Assembly (NCBI GenBank): GCA_902554335.1
Contig: CACDOD010000008.1
Span: 1-48,909 of the forward strand
Length of the DNA: 48,909 nucleotides
From: an uncultured Pelagibacteraceae bacterium
GTDB taxonomy: Bacteria > Pseudomonadota > Alphaproteobacteria > Pelagibacterales > Pelagibacteraceae
Direction: 5' to 3'
Shown here: positions 25,417-42,859 of the stretch, in pieces
Numbering within the stretch: position 1 is the first letter of the stretch
How the letters are laid out: each line of letters opens with the position of its first letter
Made by a program: the position numbers and the translations under genes
The notes under the pieces: model-generated
What the model was told of the DNA's origin: nothing
Databases searched by the model: none
What the model saw: only the letters and a program-made list of their open reading frames with translations

Positions 25417-25490
25417 AAATTATGATGCTTATTATTTATTTTAATAAAACCTTAACATTATATTAATATACCAGATAGGGAGGAGACAAT

Positions 25491-25712
25491 ATGTTTATAA
25501 AAAAATATCTTAAATGGATAAGTACCTTTTTAGTATTAACAGGAATACTTTTAACAAACTTGAATATATACCCATTAAATATTTATTTTCATGGATTAGG
25601 TGTAGTAGGCTGGACAATAGCTGGTTTTATGAGCAAAGATAAAGCTATTCTTACAAACTTTGGCTTACAAGTGCCTTTATTTTTAATTGGAATTTATAAA
25701 GTTATTATTTGA
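25491..25712 (+). CDS. Small three-helix membrane protein (DUF6552-like)
   Basis: 73 residues, nearly all hydrophobic with short loops: helices at about 8-24, 30-46 and 55-72. The layout W-x-S-T/F, GLGVVGWTIAGFMSKDKAIL resembles small alphaproteobacterial proteins of the DUF6552 kind, which I name only tentatively. GGGAGGAGA is a strong ribosome binding site. The TGA shares its last base with the arsC ATG (TGATG), so it is coupled to the arsenic genes and may serve them. Confidence 0.78.
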   Translation: MFIKKYLKWISTFLVLTGILLTNLNIYPLNIYFHGLGVVGWTIAGFMSKDKAILTNFGLQVPLFLIGIYKVII

Positions 25713-26143
25713 TGAAAAACATTCTTTTCGTTTGCACAGGAAACTCCGCAAGAAGTATTATTGCTGAGAGTATAATAAATAATGAGTATAATAATATGTA
25801 TAAAGGTTTTAGCGCTGGGAGCAATCCAACAGGAAAAGTAAATGAAGATGTGAAGAATTATTTATTATCAAAACATTATGATCTTTCAAATTATAGATCT
25901 AAAAATTTTAATGAATTTATTAATAGTCAAGTTAAAATGGATTATGTTGTTACAGTTTGTAATAATGCCAATAATGAAGTCTGTCCTATTTGGCCTAATA
26001 AAGATCAATTAATTCATTGGGACATAGAAGATCCTGTTAAATTACTCAATGAAACAAATGACTTAAATAAAAAAGATGAAATTATTGAAAAAGTTTACAA
26101 TAATATTCACAAAAGAATAAAGGAACTAATAAATGAAAAATAA
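25712..26143 (+). CDS. arsC: Arsenate reductase, low-molecular-weight phosphatase type
   Basis: 143 residues. The catalytic P-loop is C8-TGNSAR-S in ILFVCTGNSARS, and the second redox cysteine is in VVTVCNNANNEVCPIWP, the ArsC (thioredoxin/glutaredoxin-coupled) pattern rather than that of a protein tyrosine phosphatase, whose DPY loop is missing. It reduces arsenate to arsenite. I use the ATG at 25712, although an in-frame TTG precedes it. The aquaglyceroporin downstream overlaps by 11 bases and can release arsenite, a pairing known from Sinorhizobium (arsC-aqpS). Phosphate-poor cells take up arsenate through Pst, which fits the adjacent phosphorus island. Confidence 0.88.
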   Translation: MKNILFVCTGNSARSIIAESIINNEYNNMYKGFSAGSNPTGKVNEDVKNYLLSKHYDLSNYRSKNFNEFINSQVKMDYVVTVCNNANNEVCPIWPNKDQLIHWDIEDPVKLLNETNDLNKKDEIIEKVYNNIHKRIKELINEK

Positions 26144-27939: not shown

Positions 27940-29451
27940 TTATCGTGAATTATTTGAATAAATTACTCTTGGCTCTAAAAATAATTCTCTAGCAAGAGCT
28001 TTAAATCTTTTGGTAACTTGATTTGAGATTATTTCTTGATGTTGTGATGGAATTTTTAAAAATACAGCATTACCTCTTTTATATAATTTAAACTCCTCCA
28101 AGAATATCGTAGATATCGAGGTCAATGATTGCGAAAATCTTAATGCTGCTCCCACTTGTTTGCTTGAAAAAATTTCATTATTATTTAAAAAAGTTAGATA
28201 CTCCATTTTTGGATTATATTTGATACTGCAGTAGCGCCAATAACATGACAAAGCTAATTGTATTCTTTCTTTGTGTGTCAGCCTAAGTAACGGAGTGTTT
28301 ATCGTTTCTTGAAATACCAATTCGGCTTTTTGAAATGCTCCTAATCCCCAATCCATATGGCTTAATACACATGCCAAATATAATAATTTATTATTAAAAT
28401 GTTCATTGCCTTCAAAAACTGGCTGAATAAAATCATAATATTTTTTATAGTTCGATCCTAGATCACCTCTTTTTTTTGCAATATTCTCAAGTGCTTTATG
28501 AAAAATTTCTGATTCTTTTACATCTTTAAAATAGTCAATTGATAAAGAACCTTCACGCAAACCGCTTATAGAACAAATTATATTTCTTGGATTTGTAACT
28601 CTCATAATTTCATCAAGTATAATGCAACTATAAGGTAAATACGGTGTTCTAGATTTTGAAATATACTCAACTGTTTTAAGTTTAGATTTATTAAAAGATG
28701 AAATTTTTTCAACAAACTTAGATAAAACATTGTTATCGATACTATATTGATGAATTATATGTACCGGATGATTATTTTGAATAAGATGTAATTTAAATAA
28801 TGCTCGCCAGGTACCTCCAACTAAATATAGATTATTAAATTTCTTTTTTGAAAGCCATTTTTCTTCTTTTAATAATTTTTTGATATATTTTGCTAAATTT
28901 CTTTTTTTAACTATAGGATTATTTAATAATCTTAAAACTCCAATAGGTAATGAGGTTTTATTAGTAACTATATTATTTTCAACTCGAGCTAATTCTAAAC
29001 TACCACCTCCAAGATCAGCAACTAATCCATTGACATTTTCAAAGCCTATTTTTACTCCCTCAGCTGAGCATTCAGCTTCTTCTTCACCTGATAATATATT
29101 AATTTTAGTTTTAAAAAGTTTTTCAACTTCGTTAATAAATGGTTTTGTATCAGTTGCTTCTCTTAAAACTGCTGTTGCAATGATTTTAAGATTTGTGATT
29201 TTTGAAACATTTAAAATTTCAGAGAATCTTTTTAAAACTTTTAAAGCATATTCGGTACCAGATCTGTGAAGTTTTTTGGATTTATCTAAATTTTTTCCAA
29301 GTTCACAAACTGCTTTTTCATTAAAAAAAGGCACACGAGAAGAACTGAAATCTTCATAAATTAGCATTCTTATAGAGTTTGATCCAATGTCTATTATAGC
29401 TAATTTTGCCTGATTTAATTTTAAACTATTTTTACTTTTAATTACTTCCAC
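27940..29451 (-). CDS. ppx: Exopolyphosphatase / guanosine-pentaphosphate phosphohydrolase (Ppx/GppA)
   Basis: 503 residues. The sugar-kinase/HSP70-like fold is shown by AIIDIGSNSIRMLIYE (18-33) and NGLVADLGGGSLELARV (about 140-156), the two phosphate loops, and SGEEEAECSAEGVKIGF. The C-terminal 200 residues are the helical HD-like extension of full-length Ppx. It degrades polyphosphate from its ends or pppGpp. GTG start at 29451 overlapping the ppk end by 14 bases; no good ribosome binding site, so translation likely depends on ppk. Synthesis and breakdown of polyphosphate are thus made from one mRNA. Confidence 0.93.
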   Translation of the reverse strand: MEVIKSKNSLKLNQAKLAIIDIGSNSIRMLIYEDFSSSRVPFFNEKAVCELGKNLDKSKKLHRSGTEYALKVLKRFSEILNVSKITNLKIIATAVLREATDTKPFINEVEKLFKTKINILSGEEEAECSAEGVKIGFENVNGLVADLGGGSLELARVENNIVTNKTSLPIGVLRLLNNPIVKKRNLAKYIKKLLKEEKWLSKKKFNNLYLVGGTWRALFKLHLIQNNHPVHIIHQYSIDNNVLSKFVEKISSFNKSKLKTVEYISKSRTPYLPYSCIILDEIMRVTNPRNIICSISGLREGSLSIDYFKDVKESEIFHKALENIAKKRGDLGSNYKKYYDFIQPVFEGNEHFNNKLLYLACVLSHMDWGLGAFQKAELVFQETINTPLLRLTHKERIQLALSCYWRYCSIKYNPKMEYLTFLNNNEIFSSKQVGAALRFSQSLTSISTIFLEEFKLYKRGNAVFLKIPSQHQEIISNQVTKRFKALARELFLEPRVIYSNNSR

Positions 29452-31594
29452 TTTTAATCAATCTTAAGTGCAGTTGTTTAGGCTGCATTTTTAATTTAGC
29501 TTTACCCCTTCCAGATAAGCTCGGATTATTCATAAAATATTCATGAGCTGAAAAGGAATCGCTCTTACTATATTTAATTTTTTTATAATTACCATCAGCT
29601 TCAAGTTCCCAGCTCTGATTAGTATCAAGATAATTTGCCAACATTATTTGATCTAAGATCTGTTCATGAACAGTCTCATTTTCAATTGGGACTAGAAGTT
29701 CTACCCTTCGATTTAAATTTCTCGGCATTAAATCAGCTGACGAAATATATACTTTTGCATTTCTATTAGGCATTTTTTTTGTACCATTACTAAAGCAGTA
29801 AATTCTAGAATGCTCTAAAAATCTTCCTATGATACTTTTTACAAATATGTTTTCTGATCTATCTTTTACTCCTGGTCTTAAACAACAAACACCCCTTACA
29901 AATAAATGAATTTTTACACCAGCATTCGAAGCTTCATAAAATTTATCAATAATTTCTGGATCTACTAAAGAGTTCATTTTTGCCCAAATAGCTGCAAATT
30001 TTCCATTTTTGGAATTTTTAATTTCAGCATCAATATTTTCATTTAAGGTTTGCCTCATATTTACTGGCGAAATAGAAATTTTATTTAAATTTCTTGGTTT
30101 TGCGTATCCTGTTACATAATTGAAAAACTTTTCAACATCTGATGCCATTTTCTTATCACAACTAAATAAAGACAAATCAGTGTAAATTTTAGCATTTACT
30201 GGATGATAATTGCCAGTTCCTAAATGAAAATAAGTTTGTATTTTACCCTGTTCTCTTCTTAAAACTAATGATGATTTTGCATGAGTTTTATATTTAGCAA
30301 AACCATAAACAATTTGAACACCTACTTTTTCTAAACTTCTTGATAGTTGAATATTAGCTTCCTCATCAAATCTAGCTTTAATTTCAATTAAAGCGGTAAC
30401 TGTTTTTCCATTCTCTGCAGCTGTTATTAAAGCTTTAACAATTGGTGAGTCTAGAGTTGTTCTATATAAAGTTTGTTTAATAGCTATAACTTTTTTATCA
30501 TTTGCTGCTTGATTTAAAAATTCAATTACTGAGTCAAATGTTTCAAAAGGATGATGAACAACTAAATCTTTCTTTTTAATAGTTTCAAAAAAATTATCAT
30601 TATATTCTTTTAATCTTTCAACTTCTCTAGGCGTAAAATGCTTAAATCTTAGTTTTGGATTTTTTACTTTACATATTTGATCTATATCTTGAATTCCAAC
30701 AAGGCCAGATACATCATAAATATAGTCAGGATTTATATCTAATTTATTAGTTATAAATCTTACCAATTCGTTATCGCTATTTTCAAGAACCTCTAAACGA
30801 ACAATGTCACCCGTTCTACGTCTTTTTAAAGCCAATTCAAAAGATCTAACTAAATCTTCTGCTTCCTCTTGAATCTCTACATCGCTGTCTCTTATTACTC
30901 TAAAAATCATTTTCTTTTCTAAATCATGATCTGGAAAAATTTCATTAGCAAAAAAACTTATTACGTCATCTAGAATAACAAACTTCTTATGATTTTTTGA
31001 AGACTCTATTTCAATAAATCTAGATAATGCTTTTGGTATTACAATTATTGAGTTTAAAATCCTTTTTTTATTTTTTTTTCTTAACTTCATTACGATTGCT
31101 CTTCCTTGATTGATTATAAATGGAAATGGGTGCGCAGGATCAATTGCTGATGGTGTTAATAAAGGGTAAATCTCTTCTTTAAATATTTCTAAAAGTTTTT
31201 TTTTATCCTTAGTATTTAAATTAACTGGTTTAACTAAATTGATATTATTTTTTTTTAATTCCATAATCAGTTGAATAAAAATTTTGTTCTGTTTTTTTAA
31301 TAGATTCTTAGTTTCAAGCACTACCTCATCCATTTGCTCTTCAGGTGACAAACCATCAGAGCTTAGTGAGTCAACTTCTTGTTTTATTTGACTATATAAC
31401 CCAGCTACACGGACCATAAAAAATTCATCTAGATTAGACCCAGCAATTGATAAAAACTTTACTCTTTCATAAAGAGGATTTTCGATATTTTGCGCCTCTA
31501 AAAGTACTCTATCGTTGAATTTTAACCAAGAAAGCTCTCTATTTATATATTTAGATTTCAACTCTTCTTTGTGTTGTTTTTTTAAAGCAGTCAT
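29438..31594 (-). CDS. ppk1: Polyphosphate kinase 1
   Basis: 718 residues with all PPK1 regions: N-terminal YINRELSWLKFNDRVL, the head domain, SAIDPAHPFPFI, and two phospholipase-D-like C-terminal halves. The autophosphorylated histidine is His438 in FAKYKTHAKSSLV, and HLGTGNYHPVNAKIYTDLSLF and LMPRNLNRRVELLVPI are further family signatures. It reversibly builds polyphosphate from ATP. Only 13 bases separate its ATG from the divergent sixA ATG, so each promoter must lie in the other gene; a TATAAT on the minus strand at 31616-31621 is a candidate. Confidence 0.97.
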   Translation of the reverse strand: MTALKKQHKEELKSKYINRELSWLKFNDRVLLEAQNIENPLYERVKFLSIAGSNLDEFFMVRVAGLYSQIKQEVDSLSSDGLSPEEQMDEVVLETKNLLKKQNKIFIQLIMELKKNNINLVKPVNLNTKDKKKLLEIFKEEIYPLLTPSAIDPAHPFPFIINQGRAIVMKLRKKNKKRILNSIIVIPKALSRFIEIESSKNHKKFVILDDVISFFANEIFPDHDLEKKMIFRVIRDSDVEIQEEAEDLVRSFELALKRRRTGDIVRLEVLENSDNELVRFITNKLDINPDYIYDVSGLVGIQDIDQICKVKNPKLRFKHFTPREVERLKEYNDNFFETIKKKDLVVHHPFETFDSVIEFLNQAANDKKVIAIKQTLYRTTLDSPIVKALITAAENGKTVTALIEIKARFDEEANIQLSRSLEKVGVQIVYGFAKYKTHAKSSLVLRREQGKIQTYFHLGTGNYHPVNAKIYTDLSLFSCDKKMASDVEKFFNYVTGYAKPRNLNKISISPVNMRQTLNENIDAEIKNSKNGKFAAIWAKMNSLVDPEIIDKFYEASNAGVKIHLFVRGVCCLRPGVKDRSENIFVKSIIGRFLEHSRIYCFSNGTKKMPNRNAKVYISSADLMPRNLNRRVELLVPIENETVHEQILDQIMLANYLDTNQSWELEADGNYKKIKYSKSDSFSAHEYFMNNPSLSGRGKAKLKMQPKQLHLRLIKSGSN

Positions 31595-37001: not shown

Positions 37002-38033
37002 TTAATTACCCATAGCAACTAGCTTCGTAGCATTAGTTCTAGTTGTTTTATACAACTTAGAGTCTAATGGCACTAAACCAATGTCTGCTAAGTAACCACC
37101 TTTTCCAATAGCTTTCTTAGTTGTGAATTCTTTCACAAACTCATGTAAGCCTGGAATTACTCCAACGTGTGCTTTTTTCACGTAGAAGAATAAAGGTCTA
37201 GCAACAGCATAACTGTAGTCTTGAATAGACTTTAATGACGGTTGTCCACCATCAATACTTGCTGCTTGCAATTTATCTTTTGCAGCTAAGAAATAACTGA
37301 AACCAAAGAAACCAAACATTTCTTTATCTTGAGTTAACTTTTGGATGATTAAACTATCGTTTTCTCCAACTTCAATAGCAGCACCATCTTCTCTGTAAAG
37401 TTTTTGAGGTTTTTTGTATTTTTTATTTCCAGCTTCAAAACCAGCTTTATAAAGAGCTTTAGCTTCTTTAGTCATACCTTTTTTCATTACTAAAGAATTC
37501 CAAGCATCTCTAGTTCCTGATGTTCCTGGTGGGATCATCACTGAAATTTTTTGTTTTGGTAAGCTAGGGTCAATTTGGTCCCAAGTTTTATAAATATTTG
37601 GAACTAATTTACCATCAACAACTGTATGAGCAGCAAGTGCTAAATATAATTGTTCTTTAGTAAAGTTTACTGGTTTTGCATCTTTGCTGTAAGCTAATGT
37701 AATACCATCGTTACCAATTACGATCTCAACGATATCATTAACACCATTTTTCTTACATAGAGCTTTTTCTTTATCTTTCATAGCTCTTGATGCGTTTGTA
37801 ATATCTGGATGTTGTTCACCTACACCAGCACAGAATAGTTTAGCTCCACCACCAGTACCAGTAGACTCGATTACAGGAGTTTTAAATCCTGAACCACCAA
37901 ATCTTTCAGCAACAACAGTTGCGTAAGGGAATACCGTAGAAGAACCAACTATCTTAATTTGATCTCTTGCTTGAGCAACAGTTGCAATTGAAAGTGCAAC
38001 TAAAGAAGCAATTACTATAGTTAGTTTTTTCAT
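37002..38033 (-). CDS. pstS: Phosphate ABC transporter substrate-binding protein PstS
   Basis: 343 residues, periplasmic. Signal peptide ends at VAQA-RDQ; phosphate-site segments are IVGSSTVFPYA, STGTGGGAKLFCAG and PPGTSGTRDAW. It binds phosphate and delivers it to PstCA. It has its own Pho box at 38103-38131, 70 bases before the ATG, and an AAGGATTAAAG ribosome binding site. The terminator after it implies abundant pstS mRNA, as expected of a phosphate-scarce ocean bacterium. Confidence 0.97.
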   Translation of the reverse strand: MKKLTIVIASLVALSIATVAQARDQIKIVGSSTVFPYATVVAERFGGSGFKTPVIESTGTGGGAKLFCAGVGEQHPDITNASRAMKDKEKALCKKNGVNDIVEIVIGNDGITLAYSKDAKPVNFTKEQLYLALAAHTVVDGKLVPNIYKTWDQIDPSLPKQKISVMIPPGTSGTRDAWNSLVMKKGMTKEAKALYKAGFEAGNKKYKKPQKLYREDGAAIEVGENDSLIIQKLTQDKEMFGFFGFSYFLAAKDKLQAASIDGGQPSLKSIQDYSYAVARPLFFYVKKAHVGVIPGLHEFVKEFTTKKAIGKGGYLADIGLVPLDSKLYKTTRTNATKLVAMGN

Positions 38034-38102
38034 TATCTTTAATCCTTTCGTTATTTATTAATTAAAAGATGATTGACTCGTATAAATTTATTGAATCTTT
38101 AA

Positions 38103-38131
38103 TATTACAGAATTGTTACACTTTTGTTAAA
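38103..38131 (-). promoter_or_regulatory. Pho box upstream of pstS
   Basis: Minus strand: three 7-base repeats TTTAACA (38131-38125), TGTAACA (38120-38114) and TGTAATA (38109-38103), each separated by 4 bases, giving the 11-bp period of PhoB sites (E. coli CTGTCAT repeats). It lies 70-98 bases before the pstS start. Confidence 0.75.
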
Positions 38132-38142
38132 AAGGTAACTTT

Positions 38143-38751
38143 TTAGTTGTATTTTTTTGATATAATTATCTGATCAATATCAGTTTCTAGACCACCGATA
38201 CATGAAACAGGGTTTACTCGTTCTTTAAGTGCGAGTTCATTGCTTGGACGTAAAGTTATTTCTAATTTTACTAAGTTTACTAATTCTTTTCTAATTTCTT
38301 CATCATATCTCCAGCTAGGCCATGAGCTTGGTGTTGAAAATATAGAGGTTAAATAACTTGTAGCCATAGTATATCTATAATTACTTAAATTTTCATTTCT
38401 CAGTAAAAAATCTCTTACAGAATTAAAAATTTTCCTACATCTAAAAGAATCTGAAAGATAATTTTCCCTCTTGAGATTTTTATTCATAGGAACAGAAACG
38501 ATTAAATCAATTGAATTTCTAGAATACGAGGTAACTACGTCTGTATAAAATTCAGCTTCAGTAATTTCTAAATGATCCTTTATAGAAGGATATGAAGTTT
38601 TTAAATCTGCTTCTAATCTAAAAATTCCAATATCAAAAACTGTAAGTTGCTGATTTCTTAATAATGTTGTGATATCTTTAGAAAAAACACTTGTTGTTAT
38701 AGAGCTTAACAAAAAAGCAAAAATCAAAATATTTTTGAATATTTTAATCAT
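38143..38751 (-). CDS. Periplasmic protein of unknown function in the pho cluster
   Basis: 202 residues. The N-terminus is a clear signal peptide (LIFAFLLSSITTSVFS-KD). The mature part begins ITTLLRNQQLTVFDIGIFRLEADLK and is mixed alpha/beta with two cysteines (FRCRKIF, VSCIGGLE) that may form a disulfide. WPSWRYDEEIRKELVNLVKLEITL is near the C-terminus. I recognise no family. Sitting between phoR and pstS, with a degenerate 11-bp repeat array upstream (38774-38802), it may be a phosphate-responsive periplasmic protein. Its stop is 12 bases upstream of the pstS Pho box. Confidence 0.82.
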   Translation of the reverse strand: MIKIFKNILIFAFLLSSITTSVFSKDITTLLRNQQLTVFDIGIFRLEADLKTSYPSIKDHLEITEAEFYTDVVTSYSRNSIDLIVSVPMNKNLKRENYLSDSFRCRKIFNSVRDFLLRNENLSNYRYTMATSYLTSIFSTPSSWPSWRYDEEIRKELVNLVKLEITLRPSNELALKERVNPVSCIGGLETDIDQIIISKKYN

Positions 38752-38841: not shown

Positions 38842-39987
38842 CTAAGTTTTCGCTGGTAAATAAATTTGAATTTCAGTTCCTTTATTTTCCTCACTTAGAA
38901 TCTCATAGTGTCCACGATGTTGAGTAACTATATGTTTAACAATAGCTAATCCTAAACCGGTTCCACCAACCTTGTTACTTTGTTCAAGATCTACCCTAAA
39001 AAATCTTTCTGTAATTCTAGAAATATATCTTTGAGGAATGCCAACACCTTCGTCTTTAATACTGATCATAAAATTTTTTTCTAACAATTTACCGTCGCTA
39101 ATTTTGCTTGATATAAAAATAGACTTATTTTCCTTTGAATACTTAATTGCATTATCTAAAAGATTAGAAAAAACAGTTTGTAATTTTTTTTCATCTCCAA
39201 TAACAATTGTTGGATTGGCGAGAGATAAATTAATATTTAATTTCTTTCTTTTTAAAACAATCTCAAAATTACTGATGATTGTTTTGAAGAGATCATTTAT
39301 ATCAACTAAAGAGCTTGGCCTTATGTGTTCTTCTAATTCAATTCTTGTGAGTATTAAAAGATCATTAATTAAATTTTCCATTCTATTTGATTGATCAGTC
39401 ATTATTTTCATAAATTTTTTTTTAGCCTTTTCATCATCAGACGCTGGGCCCTCAATTGTTTCTAATGATCCTTTGATTGCCATTAAAGGTGTTCTTAATT
39501 CATGGCTTACATTAGCGACAAAATCAGTTTTAAATTTTTGTGCTTTTGTAATTTCAGTAAAATCTTTTAAAAATAACACAACAGAATCTGGCTCAGTAAA
39601 TAAATGAGTTGGACCAGGAATAATATAAATTTTATAAAATTGATATGATGGGAGGTCTATTTCAATATCAATATTTTTTGTTTTATTTTCAACAATAGCT
39701 TTTTCAATATTATCTATTAATTCTGGTTTTCGAATTACAGAGGATATGTTTTTATCAATTAAATTACTTCCAAATCTTTTTAATGCACTTGGATTAGCAT
39801 ATTTAATTATGTTAAATTTATTTAATGCAAAAAACTGATCCTCAAGTTCATCAATAATTACTCTTTTGGTTTTTTCCTCTCTTTTATTGATTATTGTAGC
39901 GGTATTTATTGATTTGTTTTTTTTTTGATTAAGTAAATAGAGAAGATAAACTATCACAACTATGAGTAGAATGATGAAATATTCCAT
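38842..39987 (-). CDS. phoR: Phosphate regulon sensor histidine kinase PhoR
   Basis: 381 residues. One N-terminal membrane helix (about 3-20), a PAS domain (about 48-145) with FFALNKFNIIKYANPSALKRFG, the HisKA helix with His162 in FVANVSHELRTPLMAIKGSLETI, then HATPase: N box LLDNAIKYSKE, G1 DEGVGIP, G2 GGTGLGLAIVKHIV. No periplasmic sensor domain, which is usual for PhoR, since phosphate status is relayed by Pst-PhoU. It is not next to phoB but is separated from it by the pst genes; transcription direction is shared. Confidence 0.95.
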   Translation of the reverse strand: MEYFIILLIVVIVYLLYLLNQKKNKSINTATIINKREEKTKRVIIDELEDQFFALNKFNIIKYANPSALKRFGSNLIDKNISSVIRKPELIDNIEKAIVENKTKNIDIEIDLPSYQFYKIYIIPGPTHLFTEPDSVVLFLKDFTEITKAQKFKTDFVANVSHELRTPLMAIKGSLETIEGPASDDEKAKKKFMKIMTDQSNRMENLINDLLILTRIELEEHIRPSSLVDINDLFKTIISNFEIVLKRKKLNINLSLANPTIVIGDEKKLQTVFSNLLDNAIKYSKENKSIFISSKISDGKLLEKNFMISIKDEGVGIPQRYISRITERFFRVDLEQSNKVGGTGLGLAIVKHIVTQHRGHYEILSEENKGTEIQIYLPAKT

Positions 39988-40052: not shown

Positions 40053-41060
40053 CTAATGATTTGGTGAAATATTGTTAAAAAATATTTTTGCTGTTTCTTC
40101 CCAAGTGAATTTTTTTGCAAATTCAAGACAATCATTTCTATTAACTTTCAAAGCTTTATGTGCCGAAACTTTAAGATCATTATCTAAACAATTTATTTTG
40201 GATCCTTCAAATATATCTTTAGGACCTGGAACAGGATACGCAGCAACAGGTGTTCCACAATTTAAAGCTTCTGTAACTACAATTCCAAATGTATCTGTTT
40301 TACTAGGGAAAACAAAAACATCAGAAGATGCAAAATGTGATGCTAATTCACCATTTGTTTTTTCCCCTAAAAAAATATCTTTAGGAAATTCTTTTTTCAA
40401 TTTTTTTAAATCAGGTCCTTTTCCTATAATTATTTTTGTACCTTCTAAATCACATTCTAAGAAAGCTCTTATGTTTTTTTCAACTGCAACTCTTCCAACA
40501 TAAATCCAAATAGGTCTTTTATGAGGTAAATCAATTTTTTTAGGGTTCTTAAAAGCTCCATGATTTCCTCCTCTAGTCCAAGTAATCATTTTATCGTCAT
40601 CTATACCTATATCGATTAATTCTTTTCTCATAGACTCTGTAGTTACTAAAATTCTCTCAGCCTTATTATGAAAATTTGCTAAAAATTTTTCGGCCCATTT
40701 TGCTGGTATAATAGGAAAGTAAAGTTTTAGATATTTATCAAATCTTGTATGGAAACTCGTAGTAAACTTTAGATTATTTTTTAAACAATATCTTCTTGCC
40801 ATAGTCCCTATAGGGCCTTCGGTAGCGATATGAATTGCATCAGGTTTTATTTTCTTTATTAAACTACCAACTCTTGGCCAAACATTAATTGATAATCTAA
40901 TTTCATTATATTTCGGCATCGGAAAAGTTAAAAATAAGTCGGGTGTAATATATTCTATAGAATGACCTTGTTCTTTTAATATATTGCCTGTTTCATGTAA
41001 GGTTCTTACGACACCATTTACTTGTGGAAAATATGCATCTGTCGCAATTAAAATTTTCAT
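40053..41060 (-). CDS. agt: GT4 glycosyltransferase, probable Agt of phosphate-stress glycolipid synthesis
   Basis: 335 residues with the GT-B fold: MKILIATDAYFPQVNGVVRTL is the acceptor-domain start, and FPSKTDTFGIVVTEALNCGTPVAA the nucleotide-sugar site near the C-terminus. In SAR11 and other marine bacteria a glycosyltransferase (Agt) next to PlcP adds sugars to the diacylglycerol that PlcP makes, producing mono-glycosyl lipids that replace phospholipids during phosphate starvation. Its position 3 bases after plcP on the same strand fits this exactly. The sugar donor cannot be read from sequence. Confidence 0.85.
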   Translation of the reverse strand: MKILIATDAYFPQVNGVVRTLHETGNILKEQGHSIEYITPDLFLTFPMPKYNEIRLSINVWPRVGSLIKKIKPDAIHIATEGPIGTMARRYCLKNNLKFTTSFHTRFDKYLKLYFPIIPAKWAEKFLANFHNKAERILVTTESMRKELIDIGIDDDKMITWTRGGNHGAFKNPKKIDLPHKRPIWIYVGRVAVEKNIRAFLECDLEGTKIIIGKGPDLKKLKKEFPKDIFLGEKTNGELASHFASSDVFVFPSKTDTFGIVVTEALNCGTPVAAYPVPGPKDIFEGSKINCLDNDLKVSAHKALKVNRNDCLEFAKKFTWEETAKIFFNNISPNH

Positions 41061-41063
41061 TAA

Positions 41064-41876
41064 TTATGAAGCTTTTTTTAATTCTTCGGTTTTAATTGGT
41101 TTAATTATTTTTTTAGCGCCTAAATATTGTTCTCTTATTTTGTCCCAATATAATATTTCAAAACTACCATCATAATTTTCAGCTAATGCAGTGCAGGATT
41201 CAACCCAGTCTCCACAATTTAAATAATTGACCCCATTAAAATCTCTATCCTCAGCATGATGGATGTGACCACAAATAATTCCATCAAATTTTTTTCTTTT
41301 TGCATAATCTGAGACTGTTTTTTCGTATTCACCAATATATTTAACTGCATTTTTAACTTTATACTTTAAAAATTTTGCAAGAGACCAATATTCTTTTCCT
41401 CTCAACCTTCTAAAAAAGTTAATTATTACATTTAATTGTAACAATAAATTATAGGCTATTGATCCAAGTTTAGATAACCATTTAGCATGTTTCATAACCC
41501 CATCCCAAGCATCACCATGAACAACAACATATTTTTTTCCAGCATTTGTTTCATGAATAACTCTATTAACCATATGGATGTCACCAAAATGCATTGGGAT
41601 AAATTTTCTTAACATTTCGTCATGATTACCCATTATGTAGAAAACTTTAGTACCATGCCTTGCTTTTCTTAAAATTTTTTGAATTACATCATTATGTTCT
41701 TGAGGCCAAAAAAAACTTTTTTGCATTGCCCAGATATCTATAATGTCTCCTACAAGATAAAGATTTTCAGATCTTGAGTTTTTAAAAAACTCTAAAAGTT
41801 TATTTGCCTGACAACCTTTGGTACCCAAATGTAAATCAGAAATAAAAATACTTTTATATTTAAGTATGTTAGGCAT
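41064..41876 (-). CDS. plcP: PlcP-type phospholipase C (UDP-diacylglucosamine-diphosphatase-like metallophosphoesterase)
   Basis: 270 residues. Calcineurin-like metallophosphoesterase motifs: D14-L-H16 in FISDLHLG, GD44 in LVGDIID, GN84-H85-DE, H120-GD and G-H204-I-H206. By itself the sequence resembles LpxH, but SAR11-type genomes use this homologue, PlcP, to cut phospholipid head groups to diacylglycerol under phosphate limitation, and its neighbours agt and the pst/pho genes strongly favour that. A two-unit Pho-box-like repeat lies on the minus strand upstream (41938-41955). Confidence 0.88.
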   Translation of the reverse strand: MPNILKYKSIFISDLHLGTKGCQANKLLEFFKNSRSENLYLVGDIIDIWAMQKSFFWPQEHNDVIQKILRKARHGTKVFYIMGNHDEMLRKFIPMHFGDIHMVNRVIHETNAGKKYVVVHGDAWDGVMKHAKWLSKLGSIAYNLLLQLNVIINFFRRLRGKEYWSLAKFLKYKVKNAVKYIGEYEKTVSDYAKRKKFDGIICGHIHHAEDRDFNGVNYLNCGDWVESCTALAENYDGSFEILYWDKIREQYLGAKKIIKPIKTEELKKAS

Positions 41877-41890
41877 TTAAAAAATCATTT

Positions 41891-41919
41891 TTTAACACAA
41901 CTGTAACACGAATCATTTA
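41891..41919 (+). promoter_or_regulatory. Pho box facing the diacylglycerol kinase gene
   Basis: Plus strand repeats TTTAACA (41891-41897), TGTAACA (41902-41908) and weaker TCATTTA (41913-41919), spaced by 4 bases. The first two units are identical to the first two of the pstS box. The site ends 55 bases before the ATG at 41975 and only 14 bases from the plcP start codon on the other side. Confidence 0.7.
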
Positions 41920-41937
41920 ATTTTTATCTCATTTGAA

Positions 41938-41955
41938 TGTTAAAGATTTGTTAAA
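41938..41955 (-). promoter_or_regulatory. Pho box facing plcP
   Basis: Minus strand TTTAACA (41955-41949) and an identical TTTAACA (41944-41938) with a 4-base spacer, 61-79 bases before the plcP ATG and close to the diacylglycerol kinase start. It mirrors the plus-strand box at 41891-41919. Confidence 0.62.
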
Positions 41956-41974
41956 AATTTTTTAAGGATTAATT

Positions 41975-42859
41975 ATGTTATATTGTTTGATTTACAATCT
42001 AAACTCTTCTTCTGGAAGAAAATCAAAATTCATAAAAAGGGTTTTATCTAAGTTAAAAGAAAATAATTCTGTGGACTACTTTGAAACAAAAACAATAAAT
42101 CAAGCTAAGAAAATTTTTAAAGATTTTAATCAAAAAAATTATGATCGACTAATAGTAGCTGGTGGTGATGGTTCAGTTTCTTTTGCAATTAATGAATTAA
42201 TTAAAAATAATTTTAATTTTAAAGACGATTTTGCCATAGGTTATATTCCTGCTGGTACTGCAAATTTGCTTCAAGCTGAATTATCAATGAATAAAAAAGT
42301 TGATGATATAGTAAATGTGTTGGTTTCTAATAATTATAAACCCTCCAATCTTGTAAAAATTAACGAAAATTATTTCTTTTTAATGGCTGGTATAGGATGG
42401 GATGCAAAAATTGTTCATTCAATTAATTCAAAAATTAAAAAAATTCTTGGTAAAATTATTTTTGGCATCAAAGGTTTTCAATATTTCTTATTTATGAATA
42501 ATAAAAAATTAAATGTAACTTTTGATGGGCAATTTTATCAAGCAGACTGGATATTATCCTCAAATACCAAATATTACGCTGGACATCATAAAATAAATAA
42601 AACAAATATTTTTGAAGATAAATTAGTCACCTATATTTTTAAGGATTTGACTAGGATCAGTTTATTATATTCTATATTATTAATAATTCTTAATGGTGAT
42701 TTAAGTAAAAACAAAAATGTTATTACTACTTATGCACAAAACATTACAATTGATGGAAATGATTTGATACCAGTTCAAATTGATGGAGATAATTTTGGTT
42801 CATATAAAAAAATTCATTTAAATCAATCAAATAAAAAAGTGAATTTTCTTGTAAAATAA
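41975..42859 (+). CDS. Diacylglycerol kinase family lipid kinase
   Basis: 294 residues. The DAGK catalytic domain shows VAGGDGSVSFAINELI (62-77, GGDGS nucleotide loop) and IPAGTANLLQAEL (lipid-kinase GTAN motif), then the beta-rich C-terminal half with AGIGWDAKIV and VQIDGDNFG. DgkB/YegS-type kinases phosphorylate diacylglycerol, sphingosine or related lipids. Here it is divergent from plcP-agt and carries its own Pho-box-like repeats, so it may recycle PlcP-generated diacylglycerol to phosphatidic acid or phosphorylate another lipid. Weak start context: an AAGGATTAATT ribosome binding site precedes the ATG. Confidence 0.88.
   Translation: MLYCLIYNLNSSSGRKSKFIKRVLSKLKENNSVDYFETKTINQAKKIFKDFNQKNYDRLIVAGGDGSVSFAINELIKNNFNFKDDFAIGYIPAGTANLLQAELSMNKKVDDIVNVLVSNNYKPSNLVKINENYFFLMAGIGWDAKIVHSINSKIKKILGKIIFGIKGFQYFLFMNNKKLNVTFDGQFYQADWILSSNTKYYAGHHKINKTNIFEDKLVTYIFKDLTRISLLYSILLIILNGDLSKNKNVITTYAQNITIDGNDLIPVQIDGDNFGSYKKIHLNQSNKKVNFLVK

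Follow-up and report, generated by a model that had tools for sequence, protein, structure and literature searches.

Oppositely aimed PhoB-like boxes between plcP and a divergent lipid kinase gene in SAR11: a predicted pair of overlapping promoters

PlcP is known to free diacylglycerol (DAG) from phospholipid, and a glycosyltransferase then turns the DAG into glycolipid (PMC4796936; PMC8231724). Marine plcP clusters, that of SAR11 HTCC7211 among those discussed, have been described by Sebastian et al. and have the same plcP-agt order as the locus reported here, together with putative PhoB sites (PMC4796936). Here we analyze the 98-bp gap at positions 41877 to 41974 of a 48,909-nucleotide stretch (the window) of an uncultured Pelagibacteraceae bacterium (GenBank assembly GCA_902554335.1, contig CACDOD010000008.1). 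This gap separates plcP from a divergent gene of the DAG kinase family and holds two PhoB-like boxes that point in opposite directions. In the passages of PMC4796936 to which our comparison was confined, there is no mention of a further box pointing the opposite way toward a divergent lipid kinase, or of a constant spacing. For the phosphate islands of HIMB59, the legend groups DGK, LpxH, and RfaG with PhoR, PhoB, and PstSCAB; promoters are not discussed in the passages compared, and the terms "Pho box" and "plcP" are absent from the main text (PMC10734472). A DAG kinase catalytic domain cluster, represented by HTCC7211 only, is tabulated beside phosphonate genes among the SAR11 genes over-represented by site, with its top value in the column that we took to be the Sargasso Sea (PMC3686209). 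Transcription regulators are few in SAR11, which has two sigma factors and, counting PhoR/PhoB, four two-component systems (PMC13198564). Within the portions of the literature that we searched, we found neither a description of opposed boxes at the plcP/kinase gap nor expression data on the kinase.

In the PhoB promoters of Escherichia coli that are of the phoA/pstS type, 11-bp direct repeats replace the −35 element. The SAR11 gap has the same 11-bp repeats; it differs in the unit, which reads approximately TKTAAYA, and in placing two predicted promoters of opposite direction on one stretch of DNA. Bidirectional bacterial promoters likewise serve two directions from one stretch (PMC10268837), but here two separate putative activator sites flank a 29-bp core.

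A preliminary description of this DNA had placed the gap between plcP on the minus strand and the kinase gene on the plus strand, and both the coordinates and the Pfam matches agree. plcP (41064 to 41876, minus strand) encodes a calcineurin-like phosphoesterase of 270 amino acids (Pfam Metallophos, 6.5e-13) and heads a plcP-agt-phoR run. The divergent gene (41975 to 42859, plus strand) encodes a lipid kinase of 294 amino acids whose match to Pfam DAGK_cat (4.8e-23) is above the cut-off.

As a yardstick for the boxes we used the three-unit PhoB-like array upstream of pstS (38103 to 38131, minus strand; TTTAACA-AAAG-TGTAACA-ATTC-TGTAATA). A search of 30 genomes supplied 30 pstS loci, which came from 28 of them, and one 29-bp array was taken from each locus; the array was found in all 30 loci, with 0 to 8 mismatches to the consensus over its 29 positions. 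From the 16 distinct sequences we built an 18-column matrix covering units 1 and 2, which includes the pstS array of the window and excludes both boxes of the gap. The three highest-scoring nonoverlapping sites in the 48.9-kb window were the pstS array (26.5 bits), the box aimed at plcP (41955 to 41938, minus strand; TTTAACA-AATC-TTTAACA; 23.1 bits), and the box aimed at the kinase (41891 to 41908, plus strand; TTTAACA-CAAC-TGTAACA; 21.6 bits), each in the orientation that had been claimed for it. Outside these promoters the best site in the window scored 15.5 bits, at 25440. Rebuilding the matrix without the arrays that begin TTTAACAAAA, which left 10, did not change the order (24.3, 22.4, and 19.5 bits). 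A direct-repeat test, judged with the pstS matrix, resolved each box into two units of the 11-bp repeat. The half-site is nearly palindromic, and we therefore considered the opposite orientation of either box; the matrix rules it out, with scores of −2.7 for the plcP box and 0.8 for the kinase box. Box positions and orientation scores together bear out the proposal that each box faces the far gene while adjoining the start of the other.

For the array aimed at the kinase, three units spanning 41891 to 41919 had been proposed. The first two stand, and their 7-mers are identical to the first two of the pstS array, as had been pointed out, with differing 4-base linkers. The third unit, at 41912 to 41919, does not: the three-unit score of the whole span is −1.5, compared with 41.2 for pstS, a sequence in its own training set. 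The plcP-ward array at 41938 to 41955 needed no such revision. The near-palindromic half-site and the A+T content of the window (about 71%) might raise the suspicion that the repeats are chance matches. This is highly improbable and is contradicted by the scores, by the conservation described below, and by shuffling: across 200 dinucleotide shuffles of the whole window a single position reached 21.6 bits, and shuffles of the gap reached that score in 2 of 20,000 cases. Our confidence in the existence and the aim of both boxes is high.

To predict transcription starts, we took the last Pho unit as the −35 side and allowed a 17-bp spacer to the −10 element. On the plus strand this gives a candidate kinase −10 element, TATCTC, at 41925 to 41930, lying 17 bp from TGTAAC, with a start near 41937; four of its six columns are invariant in 47 distinct gaps. 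On the minus strand it gives a candidate plcP −10 element, ATTAAA, at 41921 to 41916, lying 17 bp past the last Pho unit, with a start near 41909. Both boxes leave room for such a spacer, a −10 element, and a leader of about 33 to 38 nucleotides, and the two predicted promoters would share the 29-bp core between the boxes (41909 to 41937). The predicted kinase start abuts the plcP box, whose edge is at 41938, and likewise the predicted plcP start abuts the kinase box, whose edge is at 41908. Shorter spacing, as in E. coli phoA, would place the starts near 41931 and 41915. The preliminary description had the two transcripts overlapping at their 5′ ends. That part is not upheld: the predicted starts, at about 41937 and 41909, diverge and lie 28 bp apart, and with a Pho box serving as the −35 element the kinase start is expected no further left than about 41931 and the plcP start no further right than about 41915. 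Under either spacing the plcP start is the one on the left, and the transcripts run apart. Judged from the box positions and predicted starts, then, it is the promoters that would overlap and not the transcripts, and simultaneous binding of two polymerases seems hardly possible.

The reading that we favor, and think rather probable, is that two divergent PhoB-dependent promoters overlap in the gap as a rigid pair and are probably mutually exclusive. Phosphorylated PhoB bound at 41938 to 41955 would activate plcP, with agt and perhaps phoR, leftwards; bound at 41891 to 41908, it would activate the lipid kinase gene rightwards. Each box would serve its own promoter as the −35 side while lying immediately beyond the predicted start of the opposite one; occupation of either promoter by PhoB or polymerase should thus block its partner. 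A mutual block of this kind had been suggested before, and the geometry is one in which such hindrance is expected. On a single copy of the DNA, only one direction would fire at a time. Starvation would then switch on both an enzyme that makes DAG and a kinase able to return DAG to phosphatidate, in a ratio set by the two boxes; crossing the boxes would place both genes in the starvation response and limit their simultaneous firing. The kinase would act opposite to PlcP or would supply phosphatidate. We treat DAG as its putative substrate, because its score against NCBIfam TIGR00147 (105.6 bits) falls under the cut-off of 118.65.

We looked across Pelagibacteraceae (SAR11) single-cell and metagenome assemblies to determine how far the two boxes are conserved. 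Homologues of the kinase, fragments and weak hits included, were present in 60 of the 147 genomes examined for the family and in 103 of the 300 examined for the genus. The gaps that we read are biased toward close relatives: they came from 50 of 61 family places (the 30 best and 20 chosen), from the 29 best and 20 chosen genus places, and from a third sample made up of the best 80 of 112 loci. A divergent plcP/kinase gap was present in 171 of the 179 loci, including all 30 of the first set, and gave 84 distinct sequences, mostly from close relatives. The other eight loci were seven without a plcP match and one (L209) whose stretch did not cover the gap. Scoring these gaps with the pstS-derived matrix, as the preliminary description had proposed, showed that the 11-bp repeat phase is kept in other genomes.

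The plcP box scored at least 15 bits in 78 of the 84 distinct gaps (160 of 171 loci), with four more at 14.8 bits and two at 6.6 and 7.8 bits. The kinase box reached 15 bits in 56 of 84 (126 of 171 loci), all in two groups of the window's genus. Below that threshold, one sequence (L116, two loci) scored 13.3 bits and the other 27 scored at most 5.6. Wherever both boxes occurred, their inner edges were 29 bp apart (56 of 56 distinct gaps, 48 in one group and 8 in the other), although the total length of the gap ranged from 97 to 99 bp. Column by column, in 47 distinct gaps of equal length from the close group, selected by kinase identity alone, the mean minor-base frequency was lowest in the two boxes (0.018 for plcP, 0.024 for the kinase), higher in the 29-bp core (0.070), and highest in 41877 to 41890 (0.169). 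Sixteen of the 18 kinase-box columns were invariant, whereas 13 of the 14 columns in the adjoining 41877 to 41890 varied.

These column counts bear on the idea that PhoB works only through the plcP box, repressing the kinase by roadblock during starvation, and that the kinase box is either a relic or an element for minor tuning. The near universality of the plcP box in the gaps read is in keeping with this, as are 19 of the 84 distinct gaps in which the next ATG, taken as the kinase start, lies 1 to 2 bp past the plcP box and there is no kinase box; in these the kinase transcript must start upstream and cross the plcP box. A relic would be expected to decay, however, and the invariance of the kinase box beside a stretch that varies leads us to consider this idea unlikely.

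Several observations weigh against the crossed promoter pair. The 28 of 84 distinct gaps without a 15-bit kinase box mean that the kinase can do without it. The gaps with both boxes come from 48 plus 8 close relatives, and the constant spacing does not amount to 56 independent observations. Positions 41956 to 41974, beside the kinase start, are nearly as conserved as the boxes (0.027). Over the boxes and core, the consensuses of the two groups differ at 9 of 65 positions, 3 of 18 in each box and 3 of 29 in the core, so that at this distance the boxes are no better kept than the core. The second unit of the plcP box is TTTAACA in the window but TGTAACA in most close relatives. Lastly, although 17-bp spacing is possible for both candidate −10 elements, the hexamers are weak matches to TATAAT. 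That 28 of the 84 gaps keep a divergent kinase gene, which must be expressible without a 15-bit box (the 13.3-bit sequence being a near miss), would also suit a scheme in which the kinase box is an operator on plcP. The box lies inside the predicted plcP leader, and PhoB at 41891 to 41908, or about +2 to +19 of plcP, would throttle plcP in a negative feedback while the kinase is transcribed from an ordinary promoter. We give this scheme little credence. A roadblock needs no direction, but the box scores 21.6 bits toward the kinase and 0.8 the other way; a possible spacing to a −10 element and a kinase leader exists; and the box stands at a constant 29 bp from the plcP box.

Looking at relatives with other layouts, we found the 19 gaps in which the ATG follows the plcP box in genera g2 and g4, at one g12 locus, and in part of the window's genus. 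At one locus of genus 5 (L239), a plcP-like gene without an adjacent kinase gene keeps its own box (21.7 bits) and a GATTC. There, at L239:1473-1516, the box is back to back with a 24.3-bit box facing a gene of the CAAX protease family. These relatives form a natural series of layouts, with the plcP box alone, both boxes crossed, and boxes back to back as at L239. From the series we conclude that the plcP box goes with plcP and that the kinase box is separate, being either later or repeatedly lost. A quick PlcP tree (87 rows) split the loci with a kinase box into two groups, both inside the window's genus and separated by loci of that genus that lack the box. It requires three label changes (at least two by starred branches), one of which is L116, where the first base alone misses the strict pattern. 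The history of the kinase box would accordingly have involved either one gain with losses or two gains. The plcP box being widespread, the crossed pair seems to elaborate locally on a plcP promoter of wider occurrence.

We also considered whether a Pho box travels with the kinase gene wherever it is located. This was not supported by the seven kinase loci without a neighboring plcP match (L067, L072, and L076 to L080). The stretch fetched for L067 had no good Pho site (best, 4.2 bits), and L072 ends at a contig edge inside a pstS-like upstream region. The best sites at L076 to L080 scored 15.3 to 22.3 bits and were on the opposite strand, about 1.3 kb away from the start of the kinase gene; at L078, the only one of these five that was read, they face a pstS-like start behind a histidine kinase gene. 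At that same genus 5 locus (L078:192-2318), the kinase homologue is divergent from the histidine kinase gene, which is phoR-like, across a 45-bp gap with no plcP between them.

The sequence GANTC is the site methylated by CcrM. One such site (GAATC on the plus strand, GATTC on the minus strand) lies at 41910 to 41914 in the window, 1 bp from the kinase box and between the proposed plcP −10 element and start. The pstS promoter has two, as GANTC-N13-GANTC (38075 to 38097, minus strand), at +5 and +23 after the array. The nearness of these sites to a −10 element or start is a matter of predicted positions. Downstream of the plcP box and no more than 40 bp from it, every one of the 84 distinct gaps has a GANTC; its position is +23 to +25 in 83 of them and +38 in the remaining one (L009). 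Loci of g2, g4, g7, g9, and g12 have a second at +7. The +23/+25 site is always GATTC, and since its center base never varies, GANTC at plcP is not distinguishable from plain sequence conservation. Downstream of pstS the picture is more varied. Among 22 distinct promoters, 17 carry GANTC downstream of the Pho box, at +5 in 16 (with all four center bases represented) and at +23 in 13; five have none within 45 bp. It is absent within 45 bp of the arrays of L054 to L059, and L060 has one.

A search for TAACANNNNTGTAAYA-N3-9-GANTC matched 72 places in 49 of 147 genomes, compared with 3 for a reversed control; the counts are not independent, and the matches are pstS- or plcP-like by sequence, the gene having been checked for L239 only. 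GANTC was not generally enriched between genes in the window (1.32 per kb, compared with 1.24 in genes; 61 sites). Three of the four intergenic sites nevertheless fall in the pstS and plcP gaps, which make up 207 of 3,030 bp (P ≈ 0.001, calculated post hoc with a hand-made gene list). Nor was GANTC-N13-GANTC enriched in the genome as a whole, which has four such places, one of them at pstS, the same number as for the reversed control. The N6/N4 methylase family PF01555 and GcrA (PF07750) were matched in all 15 near-complete relatives and were not found in the 70% complete genome of the window. PF01555 is not specific for CcrM, matching 11 of 14 control genomes, and the GcrA model matched a Sulfolobus control; one PF01555 protein scored 34.5 bits against the RAMA domain, under the cut-off of 35.2.

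The presence of CcrM and GcrA has been reported for an alphaproteobacterial cluster that includes Pelagibacter (PMC2877005), and GANTC methylation with intergenic enrichment has been reported across Pelagibacter (PMC9516812); the terms phosphate, pstS, and GcrA are absent from the main text of the latter paper. In Caulobacter, methylation enhances the binding of GcrA (PMC3667746). The closest parallel is Caulobacter P169, the PhoB-induced elpS promoter, at which PhoB and GANTC methylation meet: methylation there rises in phosphate starvation and does so in a PhoB-dependent manner (PMC5172544). P169, however, is a single MucR-shielded promoter serving one gene, whereas in SAR11 two families of promoters have GANTC sequences placed at set distances after the Pho box. 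As a tentative proposal, which we regard as doubtful, CcrM methylation might gate activation by PhoB in SAR11. GANTC at the border of the −10 element and start of pstS and plcP would recruit GcrA or tune opening, tying phosphate uptake and lipid remodeling to chromosome replication. Where the boxes are crossed, PhoB bound to the kinase box would cover the neighborhood of the GANTC and so link the choice of direction to methylation state.

The boxes lie in a larger phosphate cluster. Leftward from the gap the order is plcP, an agt-like gene, a PhoR-like kinase gene, an unmatched open reading frame (ORF), pstS, two permease genes, an ABC ATPase gene, phoU, and phoB. We assigned the pst gene letters from protein families (phosphate-binding-protein-like and so on) and gene order. 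The name plcP likewise comes from the SAR11 literature (PMC4796936) and gene order, not from an alignment to the HTCC7211 protein, and NCBIfam LpxH models scored its product under their cut-offs. The agt-like glycosyltransferase gene (40053 to 41060, minus strand; Pfam and NCBIfam) is 3 bp from plcP, and 65 bp separate it from the phoR-like gene (38842 to 39987, minus strand; Pfam and NCBIfam). The cluster encodes PhoB (TIGR02154, above cut-off) and the PhoR-like kinase (TIGR02966, below cut-off). The 202-amino-acid ORF between phoR and pstS (38143 to 38751) had no Pfam or NCBIfam match at 0.001, and a polyphosphate kinase gene lies near the cluster (29438 to 31594). PstS (37002 to 38033) is 100% identical between this genome (G000, of which the window is contig C8) and G051/G093, yet the nearby kinase (41975 to 42859) is only 61% identical, a contrast that suggests recombination within the cluster. 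Elsewhere in the window, the 15.5-bit site (25440 to 25457) lies in a 292-bp gap ahead of a low-molecular-weight phosphatase gene (25709 to 26143); it may have arisen by chance, as the 200 window shuffles gave 44 positions of at least 15 bits.

Overall, the earlier observation of two opposed boxes holds in part as first put and otherwise with two corrections, namely that the kinase box has two units and that the predicted transcripts do not overlap. Should the GANTC sites prove important, this abundant marine bacterium would carry a mark of the cell cycle within its phosphate response. SAR11 replaces phospholipids under phosphate shortage, and a rigid crossed pair of promoters would let one activator set the ratio of DAG release to DAG recapture without an added regulator.
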